From Antedon mediterranea (taxonomy: Eukaryota > Echinodermata > Crinoidea > Comatulida > Antedonidae): a DNA stretch of 64,000 nt. The DNA is taken from the NCBI RefSeq assembly GCF_964355755.1, contig NC_092676.1, positions 23,170,288-23,234,287 on the forward strand, written 5' to 3'. Below are positions 13,020-52,774 of the stretch, in pieces. The position numbers and the translations under genes were made by a program. The notes under the pieces were generated by a model that worked only from the letters and a program-made list of their open reading frames with translations, ran no database searches and had not been told where the DNA came from. The number at the start of each line of letters is the position of its first letter. Position 1 is the first letter of the stretch.

Positions 13020-13828
13020 ATAACCTGTCGTATTTGAACAAACTTGTCGTATTCTATAACTTGTCATATTCTGTAATAACCTGTCGTATTCTGTAATAAC
13101 CTGTCGTATTCTGTAATAAACCTGTCGTATTCTGTAATAAACCTTTCGTATTCTGTAATAACTTGTCGTATTCTGTAATAAACCTGTCGTATTCTGTAAT
13201 AACTTGTCGTATTCTGTAATAAACCTGTCGTATTCTGTAATAAACCTGTCGTATTCTGTAATAAACCTGTCGTATTCTCTAATAACTTATCGTATTGTGT
13301 AATAACCTGTCGTATTCTGTAATAACCTGTCGTATTCTGTAAATAACCTGTCGTATTCTGTAATGTCCTGTCGTATTCTGTAATAACTTGTCGTATTCTG
13401 TAAGAACCTGTCGTAATCTGTAATAACTTGTCGTATTCTGTAATAACCTGTCGTATTCTGTAATAACCTGTCGTATTCTGTAATAACCTGTCGCATTCTG
13501 TAATAACCTGTCGTATTCTGTAATAACCTGTCGTATTCTGTAATAACTTGTCGCATTCTGTAATAACTTGTCGTATTCTGTAATAACCTGTTGTATTCTG
13601 TAATAACCTGTCGTATTCTGTAATGTCCTGTCGCATTCTGTAATAACTTGTCGTATTCTGTAATAACTTGTCGTATTCTGTAATAACCTGTCGTATTCTG
13701 TAATAACCTGTCGTATTCTGTAATGTCCTGTCGTATTCTGTAATGTCCTGTCGTATTCTGTAATGTCCTGTCGTATTCTGTAATAACCTGTCGTATTCTG
13801 TAAATAACCTGTCGTATTCTGTAATATC
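13020..13828. repeat. 20-bp minisatellite
   Basis: About 40 copies of CCTGTCGTATTCTGTAATAA with point variants (TTGTCGCATT, TAATGTCCTG). Because 20 is not a multiple of 3 and the minus strand unit has no stop, all three minus frames stay open and give the same 20-residue periodic peptide. The apparent proteins of 89-190 residues here are artefacts. It starts about 100 bp after gene A and marks the left edge of the segmental duplication. Confidence 0.97.
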
Positions 13829-13940
13829 ATATTTTGTAACAAAATTGTCGTATTTTATATAAAAAAAAAACTTGTGGTATTTTGTAGTAAATTAATCAAT
13901 TACAAATACCCCAGTTTAAATTAACAAGGCCAACAGCCAT

Positions 13941-21500: not shown

Positions 21501-22583
21501 CCAGAGGACCATTTTAACGGGTTATTCTCTGCTATGTCATATTCTGTTTATTTGATGAAGATGAATTGAGTTCATTTTGGTGTCGTATTATTGTTTTGTT
21601 TTATACGAAATACCAATACAAATTACAGACAGTAAAAAGTTCGCCAATTACAGGATGGATAAACTATTTTATAATTCATCGTGATTATCTCACTTGAAAC
21701 GTAGGGGGTTGGAAGAACTAGGTCAGGATTGAACCCGGGAAGTTAAGCACGTTAACCACCAGCGCAGCCCCACTTTCATTAAGACCAACAGTAAAAAACA
21801 CCTTATCGCTCTATAATCACATTATTACTTTTATGTTTTCAGCCTGCCTACCCACCACAACCCCAACCTGCAGGTTACACCGCCTACAATGTCCAGCCCG
21901 TTCCAGTGACCACAATAACGACCGTAAGAACCAGGCCTAACAATTACCTCATTTCAGCTATACTTGTGACGTTATGCTGCTGTTGTCCATTTGGACTTAT
22001 CGGAATTATCTACAGTGTAGATGTAAGTTTATCCTTTTCTCCCTTAAACTTAAACTAAATTAAAAATATTCAATAATACAATTATTTGTTTTCTAAAAAA
22101 TATAAACATAATCCTATGTCGTTTCCATTTTTTTTAAAAACTTAATATTGTTTTTAACTGTTCCCTATACGACAGAAACGACAGTATTGTACCCCTTCCC
22201 CTGGATACGATTTACCATATTTTGTCGGTGATAAAAAATCATAATATTTTATTGTATATTCCGGGCGTCCGGGCAAATTCTGGAGCCAGCACTATGTACG
22301 GGGAGAGTAATCTGCTTTTGGTTTTAAAAATCAATGACGTGCTATATGAAAACAGGTTTTACGAATATTTTGAGCTGTTATGTTTTAACATGTCGATTAT
22401 TTTGTTTTTCAGAGTACGAGTAAGTTTGATAGTGGTGATGATGCAGGCGCCGCAAGCTCGGCTCGAACAGCCAAAAGCTGGACTATTGCTGGGCTGGTGT
22501 GTGGTATTATATGTATCACTATCTACGTCATATTGCAAGTTATCGCCGCGTCCAGCACTAATTCATATTCATATTCGTATTAA
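18530..22583 (+). CDS. Dispanin / CD225 protein, gene C1
   Basis: Five exons: 18530-18551 (MSSEKYQ), 20303-20343 (DPSAQTNPGYPVVT), 21251-21298 (NPPPAYQPPQGYPAGQ), 21843-22022 and 22413-22583, 153 residues with all phases consistent. The N-terminal half is a proline/glutamine/tyrosine-rich cytosolic tail. The CD225 core follows: RPNNYLISAILVTLCCCCPF GLIGIIYSVD, the loop SKFDSGDDAGAASS, and the helix WTIAGLVCGIICITIYVILQ, ending SYSYSY. The cysteine cluster could be palmitoylated, as in vertebrate IFITMs (inference). A TATA box lies at 18420 and AATAAA at 23170. A longer open frame at 22222-22728 overlaps the last exon in a different frame and is not the product. Confidence 0.92.
19741..20270. 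mobile_element. TIR element 'AAAGATGTATTGTCCC' in C1 intron 1
   Basis: It starts AAAGATGTATTGTCCCTTG and ends AAGGGACAATACATCTTT, inverted repeats of about 17 bp, about 530 bp long, ending 32 bp before exon 2. The same element is in C2 (30215-30761), so it predates the segmental duplication. No frame is seen. Confidence 0.8.
21715..21776 (-). repeat. tRNA-derived (SINE-like) fragment, intron 3 of C1
   Basis: On the minus strand the sequence reads GGGGCTGCGCTGGTGGTTAA and then CCCGGGTTCAATCCTGACC, that is, a degenerate box A and a near-consensus box B (GGTTCAATCCT). The identical fragment is in C2 at 32185-32247. Confidence 0.5.
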
Positions 22584-22908
22584 TAGCCGAACAGAAAAGG
22601 AAATACGACATGATGAAGATCCGTATATATACCCAGCGCAAATTATAGAAGCCGTTTGTTATGTTATTATTCTTGATCTGTGGACCGTTCGGTTTGATTT
22701 GTGGGTGAGGAGTCTCGATACTTTTTAGTGCCTGGACAACACCTCTGTCTCATTCTTTAACTTTTCTTCAAATTGTATGTAAAAACGTTTGCAGTATATT
22801 TACCACCTCGCTGCCGATAGTTGGTAGGAAATTAGACATAATCCTTTTTCTAGTTGCCTGTCTAGTCAATCTCTTCTTCTTTCCATCTTACAGCCTAAAT
22901 TTACAAAC

Positions 22909-23057
22909 TTGTTCCGTTTCACGGTGCAGTTAGTTCAATTCCTGATTTTCATTATTTAACAAAACCGTCATCCGTTCTGTGAAACGGAACAATATCTTAC
23001 TCTATGGCATGACTGTGGTTCACGCTTATGTCTCCATGACCCTGTCATGGAGACATA
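22909..23057 (+). promoter_or_regulatory. Two inverted repeats in the C1 3' UTR (RNA hairpins)
   Basis: The first is a foldback of about 85 bp, TTGTTCCGTTTCACGG... pairing with ...CCGTTCTGTGAAACGGAACAA (22909-22993). The second is a compact perfect hairpin, TATGTCTCCATGAC, loop CCT, GTCATGGAGACATA (23027-23057). The hairpin lies about 115 nt before AATAAA (23170). Both recur in C2 (33402-33561) and in decayed form at pseudogene D (37450-37590). A role in mRNA control is inference. Confidence 0.65.
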
Positions 23058-24097
23058 CGTTTCTGTTATTGTGTTGTATTATTGTATATATATTTTTTAT
23101 TTTCACCTTTATTGTGTATCAATGTAATTTAAGACTTTGTATTGAATGATTAATTAATGTTTAGAGAGTAATAAAGTGGGAAAAGAATGGAAATGTGTTT
23201 ACTTTATTTGATTTTTATTCAGTGAGTCGTCTGCTGAGCACACTTCGTGCTTTGTCAGTCATTACGAAAACGTTGTTTCGCATAGTAGGCCTACTTATAC
23301 CAGGGAGTTGCTCCGGCCTGCTTATACTATGTGCAAAATAATGATGCTAGGACATATACAGACAATGCCACCACTACAAACACACTTAAACAAAAATATA
23401 CAATATCTACACCTACCGCATAGGCTGTTGTCCTGATATGACGGATTTCAACAATCGTACACTTTTCCATATTTTCTCGAAAACAGATCATTCTGATTGG
23501 GTTATTAATAATAATAGATATATTTATATTGCGCAAATAAACAACGTCTCTATGCGCTCAACAATAAAGAAATAGAAAGAGTACAAAAAAGACAAAAAAA
23601 ACCATCAAGCTAGCACCCAAACCGGAGTATGGGGATACACCATCACCGCTAACTGGTGTGTAAGTACCCCAGTTAGCATCGGTTAAGTCTTTTCAGGGAT
23701 CCGGTGCCTCCAGTCTACTAGTAAAGAAACAACAACAGGCAAGAAAGGTGAACAAAAGCAAAAATAAAAAAAGGATTACAACGAGGCGATTGTGTAATAA
23801 ACTTTTTAGAAAATCCCTTGTTTAGTTTAGATTTGAATTTCTTGCATTGAAGGTACATTTCTTTTGTTAAGACTTCTTTTGTTCTTGTTCTATCGTTTCA
23901 GTCCACCTGTATCAAATTTGCATAGCCAAGTTCTATAAGTAATCAAGGCTTGGCTTAGGAGAGAGCATTTTAAGTAAGTTGAATTCCATGTTGTACCTTG
24001 TTTAAATACCTTATTGGACATTATACCATATTGGATACTACTGTACCTTGTTGAATTCTGAATTGAAAAGTTTGATTTTGAAAACTTGTATCTGTTA

Positions 24098-24336
24098 TTT
24101 ATTTTATTTTTATTTTTTATTTTATTTTATTCAATCAAAACCAACAGCGATAAATACCGCCACTAACAGGTTTGAAACATAAAACAATACAACATCAAAA
24201 ACGGTTAACAATAAAATACAGATAAAATATATATATATATATATAAAACATAGATCGGCATGCCATAAACAATTTCAATTAAAACAGGTTATGCAGGCTG
24301 TTCAAGAAGTGAATTTATATTTATTTATTTTTTATA
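24098..24336 (-). mobile_element. Retroposon 3' fragment inserted only in duplication unit 1
   Basis: Unit 2 lacks about 240 bp here (compare 34921). The inserted piece begins with T/A-rich simple sequence and contains ATTCAATCAAAACCAACAGC and CAGGTTTGAAACATAAAACA. The reverse complement of these occurs at 37780-37990, ending in an A-rich tail. This fits a non-LTR retroposon in opposite orientations at the two sites. Confidence 0.6.
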
Positions 24337-26106
24337 CACCTTGTACTTATTTATAGAAAGCCAGCAATGTAAGTTTAGTTTATTATCATTAATTTAGTTG
24401 TTCTTATACTCTAGGCGTAGTTTTTCGTGTTTATTCTGTTGATATATATTTGCTATTTGTTTAATAGAAATGTTCTTATTTTAATTCCTTATAGTTTGAA
24501 CAGTCATAGTTTGAGCCGTCATGTTCTGACTAAATCATAATAAATTAACAACTCAATTTTACTCCTATTTTCTAAATTGTAATAATTCTTACAACACCAG
24601 ATCTTCAACAACTGCAAAAAAACCTAATATACGAAAAACATACAATTTTACTTAGAATAACATCTTTTATTTACAAAGGACCTTATTATATGGAATAACT
24701 TACCACTCAATCTAAAAGCAATACCCCTCATAAATTCATTTAAACAAAATGCAAACAGATACTTATTTCAAACTATTTCGAACATTAGTATTCATAATTG
24801 CCTTAAGAATTTTTTCTCTCTCTCTTTATTGTTACTTTTTGTTTAATTAGACGAAAGAAAGAAGTGTAATGTCCTGTCGTATTCTGTAATAACCTGTCGT
24901 ATTCTGTAATATCATATTTTTTAACAAAATTGTCGTATTTTATAAAAAAAAAACCTTGTGGTATTTTGTAGTAAATTAATCAATTACAAATACCCCAGTT
25001 TAAATTAAAAACATCAGAATTCTTCATTACTGTCTCTGGTCCACAATTATGGAATGACAACTTTAAGACACCACAATCTATTATTGTGTTTCGGGCCAAT
25101 GCTAAAAAATACTTAATTTCTTTATATAATGATTAATCTGATGTCGTAGGCCCCTATTTGTTTGTTTTTATTTTTTATTGATTTATTGTCTCAATGACCT
25201 TATATGTTTACTTGGTAATTATATTATTTTAGTTTGATAGGCTCTTCACACGTGACAAGAATAATTTATTCTTCTAGTATAGATCCAATATGATTCTACT
25301 TGCTTTGTTGTCTATTATGTAAATATTTTCTGTATTCATGTCATATTGAAATAAAAATAACCGTTGACGGAAAAAAAAGCTGTCGTATTTTGTAATAAAG
25401 TCTGTCGTATTTTGAAAACGTTCTAACTTACCTAGTTATGCATGTTCTTTCAATAGAGTACTTGTCTTAAAAATATATTATTGTTTGATGTTGCGTTTTT
25501 TAAGTTACGATGTCAAGATCACATTCGTAACATCTAATTTAAATAATTGATTTATGTTTCAAATATTTCTACCAAGAATTTCTATAATATCAGTTGGTTG
25601 ATAGAATATGTTATACTTTATATGAATTACATTGGTCCAGGTGGATGGTTGGACCCAAACGTATTGTTGCATTGTATTCAAGTGTTCATTTGTAGTTGTA
25701 CTAATTTGTTATTGCATTTTACGAGCGGAAAGGGATTCCACCTGATAGTGTACTGTTTATTTCCTTTACTATACAATCCATAATATTAGAACTACAGTAC
25801 TGTATTAATGTTACGGTAAAGTAAACTTTATTATTTAGATTGTAATTAGGTCGGTTGACAGTCCGAACCACCACACAATGAAATGTGCTGAATGTTGTAA
25901 ACTTAAGTACACAAACACTAAACACTTTAAGTCATATTCTGTGGTCACGAATTTATTTGAAAACAAATATCCTAACAAATATCACATTTACTAAACCGGA
26001 GACGTATTTTTATTTTAAGCAGCTACCAAACAATTTAAAGTAATTGAAAAAAGAAATGGTACAATTATCAACTTTACTAAACCGAATGCTTTATTTGTCA
26101 TTTAAG

Positions 26107-28995: not shown

Positions 28996-31900
28996 ATGTC
29001 ATCAGAAAAATATCAAGGTAGGATTATTAACATTTGTTATTTTACATTACAATACGTCTTATAGAATATTTCATGTCATCAATGGTCTGTTTCCAAAACC
29101 AAATTATACTTTGATAATTTTTACCGCGTTCTTATAAAATAATTTCCTAAACATATCGTTTATTCCGACTTTTGATACATTATCGCATGGTCGCGCTTCA
29201 GCTTTCATAAATTGTATTTTGTTTAGAAAACACGTATTAAAAAACAAGCAAGGTAGTATAAAAGCGCATGTTAAAAGTCTGGTATTTTACATATGTCAAC
29301 TTGGCCGACATAGGCCTAACATTTCCATCAGTGGCCGCGGCGTACACATCATTTACCAGGAAGTTGTTCCTCTTTTGGGTTATATTAAATTTAGACCTAA
29401 ATTTTGTTGTTGTCAAGTTAGGAACTCTGGCTAGACCAAACAGGTTGTTGGCTCCCTAGTAGCAACTTGAACCTCCCGTCGTGATCGACTTGTGCATATT
29501 TTGAAGGAAGATTAAATCAATATTCCGTAATATTTTCCCATTTTTCCCTCATTGTGTACACAGTTATTGTTATCTGACATCTGTTACTTTTTAATATTTG
29601 GATAAAAACCAAAACTCCTTCTTCAAAAATGCCAATAGAGTTGTATCTGTGTGCTATGTTTATTCTACATCAAATTCTTTTTTTTTAGATTCATTTAGGC
29701 CTAGTTATTTCATTTATTTTATTTAAAGTAAGGTTTCGGAAATGAGTTATATTTTTTTTAACTGAAAAGAAGCTCAGTTTAAATACATTTTAACAGGCGT
29801 CTCGATAAAACCGTTTCTTTTGAAACAAATAACACATACAATATTAATTTTTGATAACCTTGATAAAATGAGTAAATATATGCTATGCGTAGACTTTTTT
29901 CCCCTTAGTGTGGTATGATTCCGTCCTGTACCGATTGTTAAGATTAAGGTTCAGATAAATTAAAACTATTTTTCCGTAATGCAGCTTTACAATTTTAGGT
30001 ATATAGATGTTTAACATTTCAAAAACATCTATTATATTATTAAATCTATTATTCTCAATTTGAATGAGTCGGTCAAAAACATGTACTGATGTTTAGGCTC
30101 TGATAAGGAAAATTGTAAAGCAGATATATTACTACCATATTTGGGCAAATCACACTTTTTTTGTCACATAACATTTGATAATGTAAACAGGAATTTATAT
30201 TGCTTACCTTGATTAAAGATGTATTGTCCCTTGAAACACAAAAAAATGAAGGTCAAAATATACTAAATTTTAATTTGCCATATCAAAGTAATATTAAAGT
30301 TATTCACTTTAAGTCGAAAATTCAAGCCAAAAACAACAATTTTACGTAATTAACAGCTAAATTAATTTGATTACATTTCGTCTGGAAAATAGCGAGCAAA
30401 AGTAAACAAAGATTTAAAACCATGAGTATACATTATGCATGATGCTAATTAGGATTGTTTACAACTCATCACGGTTAAAAGTTGTTTTCACACAGATCGC
30501 GAGGAAGTTTTATGATTTTGCATACAGAGTAGCCAAATAAGCGCATTGCATATGAGATATGTTTTGATCGAAAACTTTGACTGGAAGTCAAAGTTATTTT
30601 TTTAACCAAAAAACGTCTGTATTTCAGTTAAATGATTTTTGTTTCCGACTAATTTTTGGTGAAAGTTAATAACTATTATGATACTTCAAAATGACCAACT
30701 TTTTTTCGAAATCTTTTAATTTTAATTTTTTTGGAATTTGACAAAGGGACAATACATCTTTAAATATGCGTTTCAATCATTTTTACATTTTAGATCCTTC
30801 AGCTCAAACGAATCCCGGTTATCCAGTAGTTACGGTGAGTTACCTTATTTTATGTTTTAGAATATAATCCCACCTTGTAAAGTGACTTGATAGGCAGCCA
30901 AAAATTAACTTATTTCACTGTTTACGTAAATTGAGTTACAATAGTGCAAGTCTGATGTTACGAATAAAGTTCTCTCATATTATTAATATCGGTGGAGAAA
31001 CTCCATTCATAGTTTTAAAAAACAGAATTAATGATAGTTGAAATTAATTTTTTTAAACAAATGTCTGGAATGTTACTTCCAAAATTCAATCTTCATCAGC
31101 GCTGGTGCAATCCTCCAATTGAACCTCTATGGTGCAATAATCTTCCAATTGCACCTCCATGGTGCGTAGTCTGTAATGTTACTGCAATTTAGGATGATGA
31201 TTGTGCAAAATCTTATTATTTTTCTAGTTGATTTGTTTTCCTTTGGTTTTTTAGTTATTGTTTAACATGGATGTACTATCTGAAATAAAAGAAGTTAATC
31301 AATGAATTAGTAGTCCTATTTGATAAATACTATAAACCTGCGTTATGAGAGTATTGTGTAAAGTGTAAACTATATTGTACAATAAATGGGAATTTCAGTT
31401 ATATTTGTTACATATAGTATAGTGCAATAAGAACCATCATCTTGGGCACCAGTATTCAGAGGAGATCCATAAGGGGACCCTTTACCGTGAAACGAACGAG
31501 AAGCAATACATGTTTCAACCCCTGATCAACCTTATGTATTTATCAACAAACTTTTCACCAATGAGTAATATATAAAATAAGTTAAATAAATAAATACATT
31601 TACAGCTAAATGGTGTCCTTCTCAGTCTAGGCCTACTACACGTAAAAGTCGTATGTGTGCCTCCGACGGGATGTTTGTTTGCCAACTTAAGTACCGTAAA
31701 CATTTTAATGTGTTCTTATTTATTTTTTTATAGAATCCTCCTCCTGCCTACCAGCCACCACAAGGTTATCCAGCAGGACAAGTAAGTTACTTAAATACAT
31801 TTTCAGAAAAAGCATATGTTGACATTAAGAATTATATTCCATATTTCTCACAGTAAGCCTCCAACTCTACCACCGTCTAGTTGTTTTTTTAAATATATTT

Positions 31901-33073
31901 TCATACGCATCCAACAGTGAGCAGTTCGCAAATTATAGGATGGATAAACCAAGGATGAGGGAAATTACACTCTTTCCTATCAACCAGAGGACCATTTGAA
32001 CGGGTTATTCTCTGCTATGTCATATTCTGTTTATTTGATGAATTGAGTTCATTTTGGTGTTATTGTTTTGTTCTATATGAAATACCAATACAAATTACAG
32101 ACAGTAAACAGTTCGCCAATTACAGGATGGATAAACTATTTTATAATTCATCGTGATTATCACACTTAAAACGTAGGGGGTTGGAAGAACTAGGTCAGGA
32201 TTGAACCCGGGAAGTTAAGCACGTTAACCACCAGCGCAGCCCCACTTTCATTAAGACCAACAGTAAAAAACACCTTATCGCTCTATAATCACATTATTAC
32301 TTTTATGTTTTCAGCCTGCCTACCCACCACAACCCCAACCTGCAGGTTACACCGCCTACAATGTCCAGCCCGTGCCAGTGACCACAATAACGACCATAAG
32401 AACCAGGCCTAACAATTACCTCATTTCAGCTATACTTGTGACTTTTTTCTGCTGTTGTCCATTTGGACTTATCGGAATTATCTACAGTGTAGATGTAAGT
32501 TTATCATTTTCTCCCTTAAACTTAAACTAACTTAAGAATACTTAATAATACAATTAATTCTTGTCTAAAAAATATAAACATTATCCTATGTCGTTTCCAT
32601 TTTTTATTTAAATCCAGTATTATGTTTAACTTTTCCCTATACGACAGAAAATTGTTGTATTGTTGTTTTACCACATTTTGTCGGTGAAACAAAATCATAA
32701 TATTGTATTTTATATTCCGGGCGTCCAATACACCGGGCAAATTCTTCGAGCCAGCAATATATGTACAGGGAGAGTAATCTGCTCCTGGTTTTAAAATTCA
32801 ATGACGTGGTATATTAAAACAGTTATATTTTACGTAGAAATAAAGGTTTTACGAATATTTTGAGTTGTTATGTTTCAACATGTCGATTATTTTGTTTTTC
32901 AGAGTTCGAGTAAGTTTGACAGTGGTGATGATGCAGGCGCCGCAAGCTCGGCTGGAACAGCCAAAAGCTGGACTATTGCTGGGCTGGTGTGTGGTATTAT
33001 AGGTATCACTATCTACGTCATAATGATAATTATCGGCGCGTCCACCACTAGCTCATATTCGTCTTCTTACTAG
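28996..33073 (+). CDS. Dispanin / CD225 protein, gene C2
   Basis: Five exons: 28996-29017, 30794-30834, 31734-31781, 32315-32494 and 32903-33073, 153 residues. Exons 1-3 encode the same 37 residues as C1. Exon 4 differs at 3 of 60 positions, including TLCCCC changed to TFFCCC, which removes one cysteine of the cluster. Exon 5 differs at 10 of 56 positions, mostly in the second membrane helix and tail (ITIYVIMIIIGASTTSSYSSSY). This is more change than in the rest of the duplicated unit. AATAAA is at 33672. The MITE in intron 1, the tRNA-like fragment in intron 3 and the 3' UTR hairpins are shared with C1. Confidence 0.92.
30215..30761. mobile_element. TIR element 'AAAGATGTATTGTCCC' in C2 intron 1
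   Basis: Same element and position as in C1 (19741-20270). It has a 17-bp insertion relative to C1 near 30428 (ATTATGCATGATGC). Confidence 0.8.
32185..32247 (-). repeat. tRNA-derived (SINE-like) fragment, intron 3 of C2
   Basis: Duplicate of 21715-21776; the minus strand has box B-like GGTTCAATCCT. Confidence 0.5.
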
Positions 33074-33401
33074 CCGAAAAAGAAAAGACAATACGACATG
33101 CTGAAGATCCATATATATATATATACCCAGCGCAAATTATAGAAACCGTTTGTTATATTATTATTGATCTGTGGACGGTTCGGTTTGATTTGTGGGTGAG
33201 GAGTCTCGATACTTTTTAGTGCCTGGACAACACCTCTGTTTCATTCTTCAACTTTTCTTCAAACTGTATGTAAAATTAAAACTTTGCAATATTTACCACC
33301 TCATTGCCGATAGTTGGTAGGCAATTAGACAGAATCCTTCCTCTGGGTGCCTGTCTAGTCAATCTCTTCTTCTTTCCACCTTATAGCCTAAATTTACTAA
33401 C

Positions 33402-33561
33402 TTGTTCCGTTTCACGGCGCAGTTAGTTCAATTCCTATGATTTCCATTATTTAACAAAACCGTCATCCGTTCTGTGAAATGGAACAATATTATGTATCTT
33501 ACTCCATGGCATGACTGTGTTTCACGCTTATGTCTCCATGACCCTGTCATGGAGACATAAG
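33402..33561 (+). promoter_or_regulatory. Inverted repeats in the C2 3' UTR (RNA hairpins)
   Basis: Foldback TTGTTCCGTTTCACGG / CTGTGAAATGGAACAA at 33402-33487. The perfect hairpin CTTATGTCTCCATGAC, loop CCT, GTCATGGAGACATAAG at 33527-33561 has a stem 2 bp longer than that of C1. Confidence 0.65.
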
Positions 33562-34589
33562 TTTCTGTTATTGTGTTGTATTATTGTATATATATTTTTT
33601 ATTTTCACCTTTATTGTGTATCAATGCAATTTAAGACTTTGTATTGAATGATTAATTAATGTTTAGAGAGTAATAAAGTGGGAAAAGAATGGAAATGTGT
33701 TTATTTTATTTTATTTTTATTCAGTGAGTCGTCTAATTCTACGGTACTTACAACAACTGTTTTACTGAGCACACTTCGTGCTTTGTCAGTCATTACGAAA
33801 ACGTTGTTTCGCATAGTACTTATCCAGAGGGAGTTGCTCCGGCCTGCTTATACTATGTGCAAAATAATGATACTAGGACATATACAGACAATGCCACCAC
33901 TACAAACACACTTAAACAAAAATATACAATATCTACACCTACCGCATCCCCACAAAACTCTCAAAAACCACTTTGTTTGTGGTATAGGAGGAGGGGGATT
34001 GGTGGGTGTACAATTATCTAGGCTGTTGTCCTGATATGACGGATTTCAACAATCGTACACTTTTCCATATTTTCTCGAAAACAGATCATTCTCATTGGGT
34101 TATTAATAATAATAGATATATTTATATTGCGCGAATAAACAATGTCTCTATGCGCTCGACAATAAAGAAATAGAAAGAGTACAAAAAAGACAAAAAAAAC
34201 CCACCAAGCTAGCACCCAAACCGAAGTATGGGGATACACCATCACCGCTAACTGGTGTGTAAGTACCCCAGTTAGCATCGGTTAAGTCTTTTCAGGGATC
34301 CGGTGCCTCCAGTCTACTAGTAAAGAAACAACAACTGGCAAGAAAGGTGAACAAAAGCAAAAATAAAAAAAGGATTACAACGAGGCGATTGTGTAATAAG
34401 CTATTTAGAAAATCCCTTGTTTAGTTTAGATTTGAATTTCTTGCATTGAAGGTACATTTCTTTTGTTAAGACTTCTTTTGTTAAGACTTCTTTTGTTCTT
34501 GTTCTATGGTTTTAGTTCACCTGTATCAAATTTGCATAGCCAAGTTCTATAAGTAACCAAGGCTTGGCTTAGGACAGAGCATTTTAAGT

Positions 34590-34880
34590 AAGTTGAATTC
34601 CATGTTGTAACTTGTTTAAATAACTTATTGGACATTATACCATATTGGATACTACTGTACCTTGTTGAATTCCATGTTGTACCTTGTTTAAATACCTTAT
34701 GGGACATTATAACATATTGGATACTACTGTACCTTGTTGAATTCCATGTTGTACCTTGTTTAAATACCTTATTGGACATTATAACATATTGGATACTACT
34801 GTACCTTGTTGAATTCCATGTTGTACCTTGTTTAAATACCTTATTGGACATTATACCATATTGGATATGTACCTTGTTGA
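34590..34880. repeat. 72-bp tandem repeat (about four copies; one in unit 1)
   Basis: ACTACTGTACC recurs at 34651, 34723 and 34795, a strict 72-bp period. Unit 1 has a single copy at about 23975-24060, so the expansion came after the segmental duplication. Since 72 is divisible by 3, long periodic open frames appear on both strands (115 and 120 residues); these are not genes. Confidence 0.9.
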
Positions 34881-35454
34881 ATTCTGAATTGAAAAGTTTG
34901 ATTTTGAAAACTTGTATCTGTTATTTATACACCTTGTACTTATTTATAGAAAGTCAGCAATGTAAGTTTAGTTTATTATCATTCATTTAGTTGTTCTTAT
35001 ACTCTAGGCGTAGCCATATTGTTTATTCTGTTGATATATATTTGCTGTTTGTTTAATAGATGTTTAAATAATGTTCTTATTTTAATTCCTTATAGGTTGA
35101 ACAGTCATAGTTTGAGCCGTCATATTCCGACTAAATCATAATAAATCAACAACTCAATTTTACTCCTATTTTCTAAATTGTAATCATTCTTACAACACCA
35201 GATCTTCAACAACTGCAAAAAAAACCTAATATACGAAAAACATACAATTTTACTTAGAATAACATCTTTTATTTACAAAGGATCTTATATATGGAATAAC
35301 TTACCACTCAATCTAAAAGCAATACCCATCATAAATTAATTTAAAACAAAATGCAAACAGATACTTATTTCGAACATTAGTATTCATAATTGCCTTAAGA
35401 ATTTTTTTCTCTCTCTTTATTGTGCCTTTTTGTTTAATTAGACGAAATAAAGAA

Positions 35455-35989: not shown

Positions 35990-37160
35990 TATAAGTGGTT
36001 TCACATTTAGATAAGAAGGGGACCTATGCTCGAGGGCTATTCATAGACTTTTCATCTGCATTTAATTTGATGCAGCCTCATATTTTAATGAATAAAATGT
36101 CTGAATGGAAGGTTAATCCTTACCTTGCTCTATGGGTTGGTGATTTTCTTACAAATCCGTTACAGTATCTCAGAGATTAGAAGGATCAACACTGGTGCAC
36201 CCCAGGGGTGTTGTCTGTCACCAAGTTTATTTACAATATATACTAGTGAATGTCGATCTTCATGTAGCATGTGTCATATAATCATACGCAGATGACATGG
36301 TACTGATTGGTCTATTGAAAAATGCTGACGATCATGTGTATAAGGCTGAATATGTTAAATTAATGTCATGGTGCAATGACAATTACCTTAAGATTAATTT
36401 TAATAAAACTAAAAAAATTATATGGGATTTTAGGAAAAAGAAAAATGAAAAAAGTTATCTGATAGTTAATGATCAGACAATTGAACGTGTTCATGAAACC
36501 AAATATCTTGGTACACATATTGATGATCAACTTAGTTTTGAAAAAAATACGGCCGAGATAATTAAGAAAGGTCACCAAAGGTTATATTTTCTAAGAAAGC
36601 TAAATAAATTTAATGTTAGCTGTTGTACTTTAAAATTATTCTATGAAACAGTTATTCAATCAGTACTAGTTATCTCTTTTATTGCTTGGTTCGGTAATTT
36701 AAATGAAACACACAAGAAAGGTCTCATTAGAATTACTAAGATAGCATCAAATATAATTGGTTGTACGGTTAATGATTTAAAATATCTTTATGAAAAACAA
36801 GTCTTAAGTAAAATTTTAGAAGATAAGAAACATCCATTACATATGAGATTTTTTAAGAACAAGTCAGGCCGGTTACGGGCTCCTAGAGCTGATACGGTAC
36901 GTCAAGAAATGTCTTTTGTACCAAATTCAACTCATATTTTTAACTCAAAGATTGTTAGATCATAATAGCGCACATGCAATATATATTTTAAAGTTTTACT
37001 GTTGATGGATGTTTAATTAATGTTTTTAAATTGTAAATTTGTTCTATGTATGATGTAATTATGAATGTTTTACCATATTTTTCTGTCGAGGAAAACAATT
37101 TTTCCATGTACAATTTATTTTATATGGAACGAATAAAGATTTGATTTGATTTGATTTGAT
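35990..37160 (+). mobile_element. Decayed LINE, reverse transcriptase fragment (CR1/L2-like)
   Basis: 5'-truncated, frameshifted non-LTR retrotransposon. 35995-36180 encodes GLFIDFSSAFNLMQPHILMN. Then, in shifted frames, GAPQGCCLSP (about 36198) and the catalytic YADD motif (36287-36298) appear, followed by a 222-residue frame (36297-36965) that continues the RT thumb and C-terminus (VKLMSWCNDNYLKINFNKTK). It ends with AATAAA and a (TTTGA)n tail at 37137-37160. The domain order and tail fit the CR1/L2/Jockey group; the clade is uncertain. Stops and frameshifts make it inactive. Confidence 0.85.
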
Positions 37161-38577: not shown

Positions 38578-41500
38578 ATGTCATCAGATAAGACTCAAGG
38601 TAGGGGTATACACTTAAATGTATTCCTGTTTTTTTAATTACTGTACAGATTTTTAATACGCGGGAAAGTATAGTTGCTAAAATGGTTTTTAAAATGACTG
38701 CCAAAAACACGGTCTTATTTAAAAAATATAACCGTTTTGATGGGGGTGTGAATAAACCCTTTTATCCAGATGTTTTTACCCTTCGTTAAATTAGAAACCG
38801 TATCATAATAGGGGTCCCGTTATCACCCTTACCCTAACCTAAATTATTATTGGTATCAATATCAATACACATAAGTATATATTAATATCCTTGAGCATGC
38901 CCCTGTATTTTAAGCGTAATTCCCACTAGAACGCAACGAAACGCAGCAACGTATCGAATCGAAGTGATGTATTGCGTAGTCGCAAGTGGGAACCGACGAC
39001 GCAACAGTGCTGTAAAAATCGCAGGTTTGATTTCACGTAGGCGGGTACAAACACAATGATTAGAAGGGCATTTTCTTACGTTGCGTAAATTGCGTTACGT
39101 TGCGTCGCTAGTGGGAACCAAGCAACCTAGGCCTGCTAAAATGGCAAACCAATCTTCCAGTCTCTACCAGGAACGTTTAATAACGGTAAACGTATATGCC
39201 TACAATATCTTAATAGAAGATTCAGCGGACTGGAAATAATCTATTTTATTCATATTTTATGTAATGACATATGTATATTTCTGCTGTTCATAAATGCATT
39301 GTCCTTTGTATGCTGAATGCCAGTAATTACCTTCGTGGTAGGATTGCCATACTTTCAATATTGTTTGTAAAGAATAAAATAAAGTAAAATAATAAAACTA
39401 CTGAACGTTATGCTCCACTTGTCATAATTTATAAATAAAAGACAAAACGTTTCCTGGTGAAAAAGAAAGCATTGTCCTTTGTATGCTGAATGCCAGTAAT
39501 TACCTTCGTGGTAGGATTGCCATACTTTCAATATTGTTTGTAAAGAATAAAATAAAGTAAAATAATAAAACTACTGAACGTTATGCTCCACTTGTCATAA
39601 TTTATAAATAAAAGACAAAACGTTTCCTGGTGAAAAAGAAACTTAGGCCAGTTAGGCCTAAGTGCTGATTTTTACACCGATTCTCGTACGGTATCGACAA
39701 TAAACAACACACGCAGTGTCTTGTCTGCTGACTACAAGTAGCTTTCTCCCACATTATACAAACTGTTGACAGCTTTAGGCTAGAAAAACATTTATTTGTT
39801 CATAATAATATTATGTACGATAAAAATACGATTAAATAATCTTTCAATTTTATTTACTGTACTCACTCAGTATACGAATATTTAAACAAATAAAAAAGTA
39901 AAATAAATATAAACAAGAAATATTTCGTATAAAAAACGCCGCTCATCTCACGGTAACTACCGTCTACATGCATCTCACTATTTATAAGCAAATGGTTTCT
40001 TAGACTCTCTTTGGGGTGTGCGCATGCCCAGTTAGATTTTCCAAATACCCATTTTTTTTTTACCCAGCCGTAGTCTAGTAAACTGCTATAAGCTACCGCA
40101 TGGTACCATTATACCCTATGCTTCCGTTCTCTTAAATATAACTGCCTAAAGTAGCGGTGCGAAAAATGTTAAGCTGATTCAATTATTGATGAAGGAGACG
40201 TGAAGATAGTGTTTTTTTTATTTGACTTTATCGAAGCAGTACTGCAGAAAATGTTCTCAACATGTTACATATTTCTAATAAATGTTATAGATTTGTTAAA
40301 AAATATTTGTTGACAATTTTCTTCATAATTATCCCATACGGTGTAATTTACTGTCCCGCGCGAGGCGCGTATATGTACGGGTTGACTTTTTGGGGTCACT
40401 GAATTGCACTTTTTGAGCTAAGTTAAAAAAATGCAATTTTTCGGAAGGCCAAAACATTACACATAACAATAAAACCAACAATTACAGAAAGTTACAGTCA
40501 TAACAATGTATTTTGCATTTTTCCTAAACCTATTTAAAATACCTTATTTAGCCTCAGTCAATTTGGGTAGAAACTTCGCGTCTTCAAAGGTAATACAATC
40601 AAATTAATTTACTCTTTAACGGGCCTTAAGAAAAATGAACCTTTTAAAATATGTTTATGTTTTAGCCCCGTCTGCTGCTGCTTATACCAATCAAGTTTAT
40701 CCACCAAACACGGTAGGCTGTTTTATGTGTCATTCGTAGGTATAGTGTAGGTATAAACACGAAATTACGTATAGGTAGGCCTAATAATAAAATAATAATA
40801 TAGGCATATGTTTAGATTTGAATGAATATGGTGTAGGATACGGATTGTGATGTGCAAAACAACAATCAACCAATCACAAACAACCAACTAACTATCTCTT
40901 GATATCTGCGTTGCATATAATAAAAATAATAAAATATTATATTATACATATATTTTGAATTTTAGCCTGGGTACCCGCAAGCTCAACCTGCAGGTTTCGC
41001 TAACTATATCGTCCAGCCCGTACCAGTGACCACAATAACCACTGTGAGAACTAAGCCTAAGACTTACCTCGTTCCAGCTATAATTGTCACTTTATTCTGT
41101 TGTTTACCATTGGGAATTGTCGGAATTGTCTACAGCGTAAATGTAAGTTTTTTATTAAAAGTGAACAATACAAATGTTTTACACGGAACTACCCTTTAAC
41201 TACTGGCAATCCTGTTCTTCGTAATTTTCCAACTTTATTATTTTTTTTTTGCTTTTTGTTCAAATATATTATCCTTTTACTTTCTCCATTATATTAATGA
41301 TTTGTATGTAATGTTTTTCTTTTTAAATTAATATACATTAATGTTCATTGTTTGAACCATAACTCTTTCAAATATTATACAGTTATATAAAGCATTAAAG
41401 CAGAGAATTTTGTTATTTAATGTCAAACTATGCGGTTGTACACACATTGTGAGATTGACAACATTGTTTCATATCCATAGAAAACATTAAGTAACAAATA

Positions 41501-41744
41501 ATCTTTTTAAAAAAAAGAAACAAAACTGATCCAGTATAGGTGATAACACTTTTTTTGTTTAGTTAGGCCTAATTTTTCTGTGTTTTACGCTTTTGATTAT
41601 TTTGTTTTTCAGAGTTCGAGTAAGTTTAACCGTGGTGATGATGCAGGCGCCGCAAGCTCAGCTAGGTCAGCCAGAAGCTGGACTATTGCTGGTCTTGTGT
41701 GTGGTATTGTTATTATTTGTGTGAACGTCGTATTACGACTGTAG
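38578..41744 (+). CDS. Dispanin / CD225 protein, gene E (C-terminus cut by transposon)
   Basis: Four exons: 38578-38599 (MSSDKTQ), 40666-40712 (APSAAAYTNQVYPPNT), 40966-41142 and 41613-41744, 125 residues. It lacks the NPPPAYQPPQ exon of the C genes. The core reads TKPKTYLVPAIIVTLFCCLP LGIVGIVYSVN, the loop SKFNRGDDAGAASS, and the helix WTIAGLVCGIVIICVNVV, then RL and TAG. The cysteine cluster is CCLPLG instead of CCCCPFG, a feature shared with gene F. The TAG stop is the first codon of an inserted 5.4-kb element. The original ending, VLFSTYYSDYDY and stop, lies at 47141-47179 beyond it, matching gene F's RLVLFFTYY. The second membrane helix is intact, so the shortened protein may still insert in membranes. 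Confidence 0.9.
38914..39124 (-). mobile_element. TTAA-flanked MITE, copy in gene E intron 1
   Basis: TTAA at 38910, then the inverted-end sequence TTCCCACTAGAACGCAACG, ending CGCTAGTGGGAACCAAGC. The orientation is opposite to the copies at 7670 and 49765. Confidence 0.75.
39296..39641 (+). repeat. Tandem duplication, two copies of 173 bp
   Basis: GCATTGTCCTTTGTATGCTG starts at 39296 and at 39469; the copies are almost identical, so the duplication is recent. A diverged single copy is in the matching intron of gene F (50907-50985), showing that E and F share intron 1 by descent. Confidence 0.9.
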
Positions 41745-42029
41745 TGTAGGCCACTATGTAATTTCGTGTCATTTTTTTGTTAAAAGCAAAATTCCAGCTG
41801 ATTTAGTGTCTTTAGGATGTAAAGTAATGAAAAAAATATGTTGCCATTTTTTTAAAAAAGCTTAAGGGTGTCAAATCCAAGATGGCCGCCAATACGTAAA
41901 ATATCCAATAAATGTACCATATTGGACAAAGTAACACCCATTATGAATAATATTTTAAGTTCATATGGGTTCTCTGCTATATAAGAATTATTATAAACCT
42001 ATATTCCTTAGTATTCTGACATTTTGAAT

Positions 42030-42275
42030 TTCAAAATGGCCGCCATTTTTTAAAAATGGATTAAATTTCTTATTAAAACATGTACAAGTTATGACGTTGA
42101 TTGAAATCACATAAAATGATAGGCCTATGACAACAACATTGGTGATTAACACAAAATGGCGGCCATTTTGAATTTTAAAATGGCCGCCATTTTTTAAAAA
42201 TGGGTTAAATTTCTTATTAAAACTTGTATAAGTTAAATAAAATTAGATTGAAATATACAAAATGATATGCTTATG
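42030..42275. repeat. Repeated GGCCGCCATTTT palindrome blocks
   Basis: AAAATGGCCGCCATTTTTTA followed by AAATGGRTTAAATTTCTTAT occurs at about 42033 and 42178, and GGCGGCCATTTTGAATTTTA forms an inverted copy at 42165. They lie inside the left arm of the 5.4-kb element. Confidence 0.7.
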
Positions 42276-44599
42276 ACAACAACATGGTGATTAACACAAA
42301 ATGATGACCATCAGGAGGTCTACAGTACTGACTGTACACTTCTTCATATTAAAACATCTCATAAACTTCTTCAGTTAAATGACAACTAACTCTGCCAAAG
42401 TCCTTCAATGAAATATTTCTAATCTTGAATGCGATACAGTAAGTTGACCTTCCTTCGTTATCTACTACTGCATCCATCGAACTTCCACAGACTGATCTGC
42501 GTTTCCAGCAACCTTGTTCAGAAACAATTTGTCAAAATAACTGAAATACCTCATTTCACCGGCAAATAATCTCTATAGGAGTCTTCTTTTACTTTGATAA
42601 GTTTGTCACCTGTATTCACCGTCATATATATTTTTTGCCAATATTCGTCTTTTTCTTAGGATCCCATATAGACAGTTTTCCTTCTACAAGATTTTTACCA
42701 ATGCCTCAAACATTTTCTGTCCAATTTCATCATGCCATGGCCAACAAACACCTTTGTGCGAATTGCAGCATTCTTCATTAATCGGGATATCATCTCTCTT
42801 TAAATGTTAACTAAATTTGCCAGCTCTGATGAAATCATTAATTTGTGTTATTCCAATGATACCACGCTCAATTACCCATATCAATTGATGTAAATCCAGC
42901 AAGTCCCACACATACATGTCCTCTCATATACATATAGGGATATAGTTTAACCACATCATTTAGATTTCGTCGACTCTCTGTATTCAAGTTAATATCTTTA
43001 TGATCAGCCTCTTTCAAACAAAATGATACTTAACCTAGAATCTCTTTCTCTGTCTGCATTTGTAGAAGCAAGTTGTAGAGAGAAAGCAGAATTAGTGTGC
43101 TTTTGTCCTTTGGAGATGTTTTCCATTTAAGATATTTGTGTCACTGGTTGTATAAGTAATACAAGTTCACAAAAGCACTTGCCTCAACACTATTTTCACA
43201 ATGCTACATGTCCAAAAGCCATATAGTTCACCGGGTCGACATAATAATTGCTTTTTGATGTCATCTCCGTCCACGTCCACTCATCTAGGGCAAGAGTCAT
43301 CACCAGGCATTCTTGTCTTTCCCTAGTACATGAGTTTTTATACCACAACCATGTGCACTCATCAAACCAGTGTATAATGCTGGTCTGTCTGTAGGGGGTA
43401 CATATCTAATGAAATTGGTAGAGATTGTAGAAGATGAGAAGTAGGAGTTCATTCATTTACAAGATTTTTATAGGCAGAGCTGTATCTGTATTTCCTTCAA
43501 GCTTCTGCCAAAAGTTGACAGGTTGAAAACTTACCAACCATACTTGTGACTATGGCCCTGAAGGTTCAGACATTGAATTACATAGCAATAACGCATTTAT
43601 TATTTACCGTTATACAGGATTTCACAATAAGGTATAAATGCATATTATATTGTGGTCCTATCTCCTGTCAAGTTTCAGTTTCATGAAAAGAAATGAGATC
43701 TGTAATTTAGAATCTATATATAAATTATGGTTAATTAATTCTGACATAGACGAGCACAATGGAAAAACTTTGGAACAAATTTCTATCTCAGGTGTACCGC
43801 AAAATGTAAAACAGTTTTTACTATTACGATATTGTTCCATATTTCTATCTTAGGAATATATTATAAAGAGTTTTAAAACAAAATTTCTGATTCATTGGTA
43901 GATTTTCAACTCAATTTCAATTGTACGCGGTCAAAGTAATTTCCGGGTTCACGATGAGTTCACAGGTTCACCTTGCAACTACCTGGTTTCAGTTAAGTTG
44001 GTCGTTAGTGGCTATAGCTATTTTAGTTTTTTGTTTATTTTCGGATCGGACCGCGCGTGTAAAGGTACAGTAGTTAAAAAATAAATCCCGATAGCCGAGT
44101 TTTATTGAGTAAGCTGGCAGGAATAACTGTAGGCTATCTGTGTCCCATTAGGGTCCATATTGCAAGCCGTCTAAAACACCTTCCTTCTTGGGCCGAAACG
44201 GCCTACACTGTCGCGGAAGTTAGTTTCAAAAGATGTTTAAATTAAATAATGTATTATGATGGTATTTATTTGAATAAACGCCTCCCCAATAAAACATCAC
44301 TTTGAATAATAATCGCCTACACCCACCTACCCAACTATCTAATGAACGCCCATCCACATTAATTATACACACAATATTATATATACTATTTATAATAGAA
44401 TTCATTACACTGTTAACTATAATTTACCAAGCATTTGTTATAATTTTTTACCACTTTTCATATCTATTAGAGAATTTTATTTTATTATAAATGTTAAGAT
44501 ATTATTAAAACTAAAAAATCCCTCGAATAAGCATCTCCCTCAAATGAACTCTGCCTCCCCACCTCCGCCCTATAAAACAATAAACACTATACTATAAAT

Positions 44600-44872
44600 T
44601 CCCCATGTTGTGACACTTGCAATGTTATTGAGAATGATAAACATATGTTAGTAGAGTGCATAACAGTAAAATGTTTATGGAGAGAGATAAACGAAATAAT
44701 TAGAGCAGTAAGCATACATATTCCTGTTTTTTCTTTCAAAAGACTTTTATTTGAAACTGACAATAATTACGTAAATAAATTATACACTTTAGGAGCATTT
44801 TGTATTTATAAAGTAAAGATATTAAGTTTATTGGAAAAAGAAAAAAAAAATCAATCTCCTACAAATGTTTAA
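44600..44872 (+). mobile_element. LINE C-terminal fragment with zinc-knuckle-like zf-RVT motif
   Basis: Reading CDTCNVIENDKHMLVECITV KCLWREI from 44610, this has the Cys-x2-Cys-x7-His-x4-Cys spacing followed by Trp that ends many LINE reverse transcriptases. The frame continues to 44872, then comes AT-rich 3' sequence and a 35-base T run at about 44987. No RT core is present, so it is a 3' remnant nested inside the 5.4-kb element. Confidence 0.65.
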
Positions 44873-44986
44873 ATCTGAAAAAAATATAAGAAATATGTAA
44901 ATCTGCAGGTATACTGTATATGCTCAACCAGATTAAGGAAGAAAATATGTAAATGAGATACCATGAATGATGAATCTATTATGTTT

Positions 44987-45021
<35 letters not shown>

Positions 45022-45299
45022 CTTGCTACTATACTGTATGTTTTGTAAACATGTATACCTTGATGATTTGAAAACAAAAAGACAAAATGTGAAAAGCTTT
45101 TTATAGATTGATGATAAAAAAAAAATGATGAAGGATAAGAAGGTTTAGGTTTAAGTGGGGAAGTGTTTTCATCAAAGCTTTCATATTATAGGTATATACC
45201 GTATATATGTAATTTGCACATTCTTACTGCATGTGGAATTTTGAAATGATAAAATGGTTAAAAAGAAAAAAAAGAATGTCTAATTTTTTTAATGGATCA

Positions 45300-46335
45300 T
45301 TAAACACAAATGTTGTTAAATGATAATGTATGTATAAAAAAATAATAGAATAAATAATAAGTAAAAAAAAATAATGGAATGAACCCACATAGGAAAAAAA
45401 AAAGTTAAATGAAACTTTGATGGGTTATACTGTAGATGCAAAAAAGGATAATCTGTTGGAAATAAATTTTGTAAACATTTAAAGATCAAAAAAATCAATG
45501 TTAAAGGATGAGGAAAATATAATGTTAACAGTAAAAAGTTAGTAAGTAATTAGTATAACAGAGAATATGCATTGTTTAAATGAAAATATGTTTGCATAGA
45601 TAAATCCAAAGAAAAATAAAATGGGACAAACCCATGGGATGGATTTATTAAACATAAACGTATTATAATTGTATGAAATAAATATGCATGTAGATGAAAA
45701 AAAAAACAAAAACAACTATGTAAGAAAAAATAAGCTTTGTTAATGAAAATGTGTTATAGATAATATGTATAAAAAGAGGAAACTATGTAATCAATGTGGT
45801 TAAATGATAATGTATGTATAAACAAAATAATATATGGAAATAGTTTTTTTTTTTAAAGAAAATAAGTAAAAAAAAAAAAAAGTGGAATGAATCCACATAA
45901 GAGAAGAAAGTAAAAAAGTTAAATGAAAATTTAAGAAGTTATAGATGCAAAAAAGGATCTGCTGGTTTTGTAAACATTAAAGAACAAAAATATTAATATT
46001 AATGTTAAAGGATGAGAACAATATTATGTTAACAGTAAACATGTAGTAAGTAATGAGTATAACAGAGAATATGCATTGTTAAATGAAAATGTGGTAGATG
46101 AAAAAATTAAAAACAACTACGTAAGAAAAAAAAAAGCTTGTTAATGAAAATGTGTTACAGATAATATGTTTAATCAATGTGATAATATGTAAACAAATGA
46201 ATAAATAAGTATATGTATACAGATGATTAAACAAACATTGTAAATATAATGATATGTATAGTGTATAGTGAAAAATATATGTAAAGAGAACAGTGGTTTG
46301 GAAATAAAAGTGGGATGAACCCACATAAGATAAAA
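45300..46335. repeat. Tandem duplication of a ~507-bp A-rich unit
   Basis: GTTAAAGGATGAG followed by ATGTTAACAGTAAA and AGTATAACAGAGAATATGCA occurs near 45500 and near 46006; GGAATGAAYCCACATA recurs at 45377 and 45884, and a third diverged trace is at 46312. The long minus-strand frames in this stretch are low-complexity artefacts. Confidence 0.75.
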
Positions 46336-47140
46336 AAAAATAAACACTATACTTTAAAATGTTATTAATCATCTAAGACACTGTGAAACAGAGTAGGTTT
46401 AGTTTTTCGAATGTCTAGCATTTTCAATAATGGTAACCGACAGAAAACGTACAAGGAGAACGTCCTTCTAAAACCTTTTTACCCGAGTCATTATCATTCC
46501 GAGAACCTTCGTTTACACTTCCTAGAGGGGAGCGAGCAAACTAGAGGTCTAACCCTCTAGTTAGACGTAATTGTTGTTGAATATTTGATATAAATTGTTA
46601 AGTTGTTCCATACTTTTGCAACTCCAACTTTGAACGATTATTTAATTTAATAGTCATAGTGGGGTATTATATATCTGTTATATAGAGGAAATTGACAACT
46701 TTAGCCTTATATTTACAATTTACAATTCTGTGAGAAGTGACAATTTTAGAACATTGTGTACAAACAACAATTTATGCACACATATTTAAAAAAAAATATT
46801 TAAAGAATTTAATTTTTAGTGGCGGCCATTTTGAAATCCAAGATGGCCAACAGATTATCGCTTTACATAGTTAGGATTGTATAATGGGTACAGTAATACC
46901 ATCAAAACGGTCTTTTTCCGCATTCATAATTTGTATTATTGGTGATATTCTGATTTTTAATAGGGTTATTTGAATGTTGGCGGGCATCTTGAATTTGGTC
47001 CTTTAAATGTCTTTTGAAAAAATGGCAACATATTTTTTTTCATTCCTTATATTATCAAGATATGAAATAAAGTCAAAGTTTGCTTTTAACAAAAAATATA
47101 CACGACATTCATATAAACGACATACCAGCCTACACTACTG

Positions 47141-47313
47141 GTCTTGTTCTCCACGTACTATTCCGACTACGACTACTAGAGCCCATAGTGAAAGTTGTCG
47201 GGACTTCACGAAGAGGAAAGAATATACAGGATTATTTAAACATGTTCTACTTAGGCCTAAATATTCATATTTATTCAATTGCATAAAAGGGGAGAGTAGA
47301 AGATAGCAATAAA
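47141..47313 (+). pseudogene. Orphaned end of dispanin gene E (last 12 codons, stop, poly(A) signal)
   Basis: Directly after the right CTG, codons read VLFSTYYSDYDY and TAG (47177-47179). Joined in frame to ...VVLRL before the left CTG, this restores the gene F pattern RLVLFFTYY. Downstream, GAATATACAGGATTATTTAA and GGGGAGAGTAGAAGATAGCA match the gene F 3' UTR (AATATACAGGGTTATTTAAT, TGGAGAGTATACAAG). AATAAA is at 47308. Confidence 0.85.
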
Positions 47314-47392
47314 CAAAATAAAGTAAAATAATAATAATAATAATCAGATTTCGTTCGATTTTAGATTTCAGATGCCTTGGACATGAGTTCAT

Positions 47393-51920: not shown

Positions 51921-52774
51921 ACTCGCCGCCGTCTACTGCAGCTTATACAAATCCCGTTTATCCAAACACGGTAAGTTTGTTTTATGTGTTTCATTCGTGG
52001 GTATAAACACGAAATAATTAACAATAGCGCTATCCGTAATTCACTGTCTGTAATTTGATTTGGCTACTTTATCGTATAGCGCACATTCCAACAATTAACC
52101 AATCATCAATCAGGAAAAAGATCAGTTTTGATATCTTAACTTTATTTGATAACTATAGGCCTATATTTTGTATTTTAGCCTGAGTACCCCCAAGCCGGGC
52201 CTGCAGGTTTCGCTAACTGCACCGTCCAGCCCGTACCAGTGACCACAATAACCACTGTGAGAACTAAGCCTAAGACTTACCTCGTTCTATCTATAATTGT
52301 CACTTTATTCTGTTGTTTACCATTGGGAGTTATTGGGATTGCCTACGGTATAGAGGTAAGTTTTTATTTTTAAATCAAAAGTCTTTAAAATATACACATT
52401 TTAATTTAATGTACAAATCAAATACTTTAAAGAAATCTCTGTGAACTTTGTCGTTTACCAATTTTTGTTGTTTCTTTTAAATAGGCCTACAATTTGCATA
52501 TAGGCCTATTAAATACAAACATAATCTTGGGTATATGAAAGTAATAATCGATAATGTGTTTACAGACATTTTTGATTGGGTATATCTAACTGTATTTCAA
52601 TCTTTCGATTTTGTTTTTTAGAGTTCGAGTAAATTTGACAGAGGTGACGATGAAGGCGCCCTGAGATCATCTATTACGGCAAGGAACACGTCGATTGTTG
52701 GTCTCGTGTGTGGTTTAACTTTTATTTGTCTTAACGTCATAACACGACTTGTATTGTTTTTTACGTACTATTAA
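51921..52774 (+). CDS. Dispanin / CD225 protein, gene F (first exon not found)
   Basis: Exons 51921-51970 (SPPSTAAYTNPVYPNT, entered in phase 1 as in C and E), 52179-52355 and 52622-52774, about 125 residues without the first exon. The core reads TKPKTYLVLSIIVTLFCCLP LGVIGIAYGIE, the loop SSSKFDRGDDEGALRSS, and the helix TSIVGLVCGLTFICLNVI, ending TRLVLFFTYY. Pairing with gene E is clear from the shared CCLPLG, the missing NPPPAYQPPQ exon and the homologous introns. A first exon like MSSDKTQ should lie upstream; without it the gene may be inactive or use a diverged leader. AATAAA is at 52863. Confidence 0.85.

Follow-up and report, generated by a model that had tools for sequence, protein, structure and literature searches.

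A terminal-inverted-repeat transposon in the last exon of a crinoid dispanin gene, with the severed gene end still readable downstream

Introduction

What separates the last codons of a gene from the rest of it by more than five kilobases, and what does the separation mean for the protein? The question is raised by gene E, a dispanin (CD225, IFITM-like) gene in a tandem cluster of small membrane-protein genes of the crinoid Antedon mediterranea. The stretch analysed here, hereafter the window, comprises 64,000 nucleotides (C7:23170288-23234287) of the 354-Mb, 18-contig assembly GCF_964355755.1. An interpretation made from the letters alone, hereafter the sequence-only reading, had proposed that a 5.4-kb element with terminal inverted repeats (TIR) has cut off the last 12 codons of this gene. 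We put at roughly 95% the probability that a transposon mobilised in trans inserted at a CTG codon in the last exon of gene E, bringing in a stop 12 residues early, and that the end of a retroelement resembling a long interspersed nuclear element (LINE) is nested within it.

Results

The junctions and the severed end

The open frame of gene E runs up to CTG at 41739-41741, where TAGTGTAGGC begins at 41742; on the other side, GCCTACACTA extends up to 47137 and leads into a second CTG at 47138-47140. All coordinates proposed for the element and its flanking triplets hold to the base. The first triplet of the element, TAG (41742-41744), is in frame with the CTG, so that gene E now ends ...NVVLRL*, the immediate stop that had been foreseen. 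Past the right CTG lie the codons GTC TTG TTC TCC ACG TAC TAT TCC GAC TAC GAC TAC, then TAG. Joining the flanks on a single CTG yields ...NVVLRL + VLFSTYYSDYDY, the counterpart of which in the uninterrupted gene F reads ...NVITRLVLFFTYY; the empty site predicted for gene E without the element is CGACTGGTCTTG. The joined exon aligns with gene F without a gap across the junction and for 22 bases beyond, and homology resumes in the 3' untranslated region (UTR), as the sequence-only reading had noted. The stop of F (TYY*) lies five residues before that of E, and the tail of the latter, SDYDY*, is akin to the Tyr/Ser-rich tails of other genes in the cluster.

The severed side alone, aligned with F, reaches a local score of 43.5 vs a mean of 15.2 for 1000 shuffles (standard deviation 2.6, maximum 26), which bears out the claim that these 12 codons were cut off gene E. 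The identity over its first 22 bases is attained at only 2 of 63,978 window positions, which we take to be the severed end itself and gene F. A DNA search for a second uninterrupted relative of E retrieved only the cluster and one exon on C1, none of which spans the junction; the one uninterrupted homologue found is the paralogue F, and the predicted uninterrupted form of E rests on it.

A recently amplified transposon family

First-look candidates for the two ends numbered 178 and 158, and the genome search with both ends allowed at least 40 near-identical copies with the same ends to be scored per end. The TIR pattern TAGTGTAGGCNNNTATGT has 106 matches genome-wide vs 1 for the reversed control. 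Full copies start and end at exactly the bases of the window copy. The sequence-only reading had named beforehand two outcomes that would refute it, copies bounded elsewhere than at 41742 and 47137 and the lack of an uninterrupted homologue, and it passed on both counts. A perfect 3-bp duplication flanks 40 of the 42 copies in which both junctions were read, vs 11.8% matches when flanks are randomly re-paired; the exceptions are L052 (AAC/TAA) and L124 (altered terminus). The combination of terminal inverted repeats and a fixed-length duplication in many copies places the element among the class II, cut-and-paste transposons, in line with the TIR element of the sequence-only reading. By position, the duplicated triplet is biased to T-W-A (T in 26/40, A or T in 37/40 and A in 26/40), with exact TWA in 14/40; the CTG of the window is atypical, and other copies depart from the bias too. 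Since the ends of the family begin with TAG, insertion into an exon brings a stop within two codons at either end in two of the three phases.

Other copies usually measure 3.2-3.7 kb. The window copy is longer by 1.76 kb at 44594-46353, a segment that none of the other copies read contains and that is bounded by a 15-bp duplication, AATAAACACTATACT. Consequently, the 5.4-kb figure stands for the inserted DNA as a whole (5,396 bp), which is composite, the transposon proper accounting for about 3,636 bp. The nested piece gave only a weak zf-RVT match (E-value 0.5) with reverse-transcriptase models, and its LINE-like label therefore rests mainly on structure. Three different elements have inserted within a few tens of bases of one another in three copies (window 44579-44593 and the equivalent positions in L041 and L056), and this interior site is a possible insertion hot spot.

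Ten copies of 3.2-3.7 kb differ pairwise by 0.1-3.3%, and the window copy carries 31 substitutions private among the sampled copies over 3,630 positions; the resulting 0.85% is an upper-end guide to divergence since insertion, as some of the substitutions may stem from a sub-lineage outside the sample. Amplification of this non-autonomous family was recent.

Coding capacity

The whole family has in common the protein-coding remnant of a decayed gene on the minus strand (Table 1). The sequence-only reading had suggested a search for other copies with an intact transposase. The 17 full copies lack an intact family gene, and genome searches based on the remnant returned 138 and 159 matches, all short or stop-interrupted and without an intact open reading frame (ORF). 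Copies of 6.5, 6.55 and 15.9 kb were considered as autonomous members and rejected, their extra length representing other nested elements to which their long ORFs belong, including a reverse transcriptase in L041. The copy L056/L057 (C11:14141378-14157244) contains two nested elements, one with the ends CAGGGCTCGCAGAATC and one of 10.5 kb that has an integrase-like ORF, long inverted repeats (TATGGGGCGCCATAAGCAGC...) and a duplication of TCTAAG.

Some older, more diverged copies retain a segment absent from the young ones, reading HMESTHAFIKYFFAHDHLNYGRLLPLY and then ...GIIGIT.... This segment aligns with an intact 1,547-aa frame at C8:1305750 (fragment read, C8:1305546-1305852), which reads HMASFNRMIPYFFRYDHYNYARWGPVY ... 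SGGIVGIT, at 46-52% identity over 27-28 residues (small local database, E-value about 1e-4); one old copy also matches over a second stretch, around GIVGIT, with an E-value of only 1.8. Similar intact frames, individually weak, lie at C8:16440127 (1,213 aa, E-value 0.008), C9:14397300 (1,147 aa, 0.05) and C2:16418274 (1,524 aa, 0.22), and the two motifs follow one another in the same order. The frames of 1,147-1,547 aa are apparently related to the decayed gene and represent candidates for a live autonomous lineage. Their layout is that of what we take to be large animal transposon proteins, possibly of Academ, which no Pfam model confirms; proteins with such large ORFs are widespread in animals. 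A Pfam search with one C8 fragment gave no match. For the decayed gene, Pfam returned no family or transposase, a weak match to UPF0489 (E-value 0.013-0.04) being judged to be chance, as were the PDB matches to a C-type lectin (0.5-0.8) and Scone-R (0.007). The Rfam search gave no match.

The locus and its surroundings

Table 1. Features of the interrupted gene E, the inserted DNA and the comparator gene F (window positions)
Feature	Position	Strand	Remarks
Gene E internal coding exon, PGYPQ...VYSVN	40966-41142	+	Conserved with gene F (52179-52355)
Last exon of gene E, part before the insertion, SSSKFNRG...NVVLRL	41613-41741	+	Read from the translation and the alignment to F; CD225 match reaches position 66/68
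Target duplication CTG, left copy	41739-41741	+	3 bp; Leu codon
Inserted DNA	41742-47137	+	5,396 bp, of which 3,636 bp transposon and 1.76 kb nested piece; ends same in other copies
Left terminal inverted repeat	41742-41892	+	Outer 10 bp perfect, ~78% identity further in
First AATAAA in element, candidate poly(A) signal newly available to gene E	41907-41912	+	Sequence only; 165 bases into element
Two tandem ~140-bp subterminal repeats	42020-42303	+	42020-42158 and 42164-42303, 88.7% alike; AAAATGGCCGCCATTTT palindromes
Decayed protein-coding remnant	42350-43410	-	Frameshifts and stops; common to whole family
Left 15-bp duplication of nested insertion	44579-44593	+	AATAAACACTATACT
Nested LINE-like 3' end	44594-46338	+	~1.75 kb, A-rich tail; private to window copy among those read
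Right 15-bp duplication of nested insertion	46339-46353	+	AATAAACACTATACT
Right terminal inverted repeat	46977-47137	-	
Target duplication CTG, right copy	47138-47140	+	3 bp
Severed gene E end, VLFSTYYSDYDY + TAG	47141-47179	+	12 codons, 47141-47176; TAG 47177-47179
Stranded gene E 3' UTR	47180-47330	+	Homology with F 3' UTR; AATAAA at 47308 and 47317
Gene F last exon, uninterrupted comparator	52622-52774	+	Point matching the E junction, 52751

Elsewhere in the window, a direct duplication (20000-24622 and 30491-35223, about 10.5 kb apart and 92-99% identical) carries two dispanin copies, and a 227-aa open frame at 36282-36965 (+), the translation of which (SYADDMVLIG...) resembles the end of a reverse transcriptase, marks a LINE fragment between dispanin genes. 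The long overlapping ORFs in three frames at 13064-13891 (-) do not represent a gene but derive from a tandem repeat of the ITEYDRLLQNTTGYYRIRQ type. Additional groups of CD225 exons that share identical scores are located at C3:17.04-17.20 Mb, C3:25.23-25.25 Mb, C4:16.62 Mb and C3:12.83-12.85 Mb, which suggests a recent dispanin expansion in this genome.

Discussion

Fate of gene E

The mechanism is an ordinary transposon insertion, cleanly documented. A non-autonomous TIR transposon, presumably mobilised in trans and descended from an element whose minus-strand gene decayed, inserted by cut and paste at a CTG of the last gene E exon, duplicating the codon. With TAG as its first triplet and an insertion point in phase 0, the element would end translation right after ...RL, 12 residues early; the LINE-like end lies within the transposon. 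Under this account, a poly(A) site newly provided by the element would be used and the truncated protein would retain its function. Several points weigh against this account: the comparator F is a diverged paralogue (dS, the synonymous divergence, is about 0.34) from the same, single assembly and not an empty allele of E; an autonomous partner was not found, with remnants only among the copies read; and gene E may have been silent or without function when the element inserted.

With regard to the protein, the CD225 domain (PF04505) scores 82.2 bits in the truncated form vs 81.9 with the tail (cut-off 27.1), and positions 1-66 of 68 are matched upstream of the insertion. The domain is thus intact, and the loss is confined to residues past it, which probably comprise the tail and the end of the second membrane segment. 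As the stop follows the whole domain, the truncated protein may remain functional. Given that the duplication equals one codon, excision that left it behind would keep the frame, restoring the full tail with one extra Leu. It can further be imagined that gene E now has its functional 3' end in the transposon, the terminal TAG and an internal AATAAA of which would replace the old stop and poly(A) site, so that a dispanin with an altered C-terminus is expressed and the allele could switch between two C-termini; we regard this as improbable.

A rival reading holds that the insertion is neutral debris in an already dead gene, the truncation being without consequence. It draws on the nature of the locus, a small tandem cluster with duplicated copies in which some exons have stops within the CD225 match, and on a ratio of nonsynonymous to synonymous divergence (dN/dS) between E and F of only about 0.52 over the coding exons common to both, a value that says little about gene E after the insertion. 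However, the E exons examined are open with conserved splice sites, the internal exon is the top CD225 exon match in the genome and the 12 severed codons are still open. On balance, this rival reading appears somewhat unlikely.

Superfamily affiliation

The superfamily, left undecided by the sequence-only reading, can be narrowed: its description of the ends as TAGTG...CACTA, the reverse of CACTA, stands, CACTA is not supported, no resident Harbinger transposase was found and an Academ-type origin is the probable lead. The TAGTGTAGGC ends, the 3-bp AT-rich duplications and the decayed gene fit Academ, which is the best lead at about even odds, not an assignment. Target duplications are reported to be 3 or 4 bp in AcademX and 9 or 10 bp in AcademH (PMC10045372). 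Genome searches with DUF6589 matched at loci other than those of the intact relatives, as did those with the XPG nuclease (PF00867), a model that may miss a divergent domain.

Ranked second, a PIF/Harbinger derivative would account for duplications biased to T-W-A in a genome where Harbinger transposases abound. Nevertheless, exact TWA is confined to 14 of the 40 triplets, Pfam models of transposases do not match the decayed gene and, among the listed positions compared, no DDE_Tnp_4 match falls inside a TIR-bounded copy except a nested one. The latter, an ORF at C4:13906668 between the ends of an old relative, was considered as the family transposase and rejected; it sits in a 5.1-kb insert with an ATT duplication and its own TIRs, TGTYGTATKTGAATG (TGTYGTAT...), compared by eye on the boundary sequences, and is consequently a separate nested Harbinger element. 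A Harbinger origin is, in our view, unlikely.

Membership in CACTA/EnSpm (CMC), suggested by the 3-bp duplication and by CACTA at the ends, is very improbable, given that the order is reversed (TAGTG...CACTA, not CACTA...TAGTG, and thus no start in CACTA or CACTG) and that the genome has only two sub-threshold Transposase_21 matches, neither near a listed TIR match. Finally, the notion that gene E naturally ends ...RL, and that the downstream likeness to VLFSTYY is coincidental, has in its favour the open frame of E as far as the TAG of the element, but it is refuted by a similarity that none of the shuffles and just two window positions reach and by homology running on into the 3' UTR.

Comparison with known systems

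The insertion represents a well-resolved case in which a CD225-family gene is shortened with its domain untouched while both junctions and the stranded end can still be read. In addition, it brings to light a non-autonomous family of recent activity that can serve as an anchor for locating the autonomous partner in the genome. With large non-autonomous TIR elements and miniature inverted-repeat transposable elements (MITEs), the family shares the lack of coding capacity, TIRs, target duplications, high similarity among copies and presumed mobilisation in trans; however, MITEs are shorter than 800 bp (PMC5199201), whereas the copies described here are far longer and keep a fragment of a decayed gene. 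The likeness to PIF/Harbinger lies in the TWA-biased 3-bp duplications, and the difference in the laxity of that bias and in the lack of a DDE_Tnp_4 gene owned by any copy. With AcademX, compared by description rather than by sequence, the family has in common a duplication of 3-4 bp (3 bp in 40/42 copies), but it is without any intact coding gene. As for dispanin/CD225 proteins, gene E resembles them in scoring 82 bits to CD225 and differs in having been parted from its last 12 residues by the insertion.

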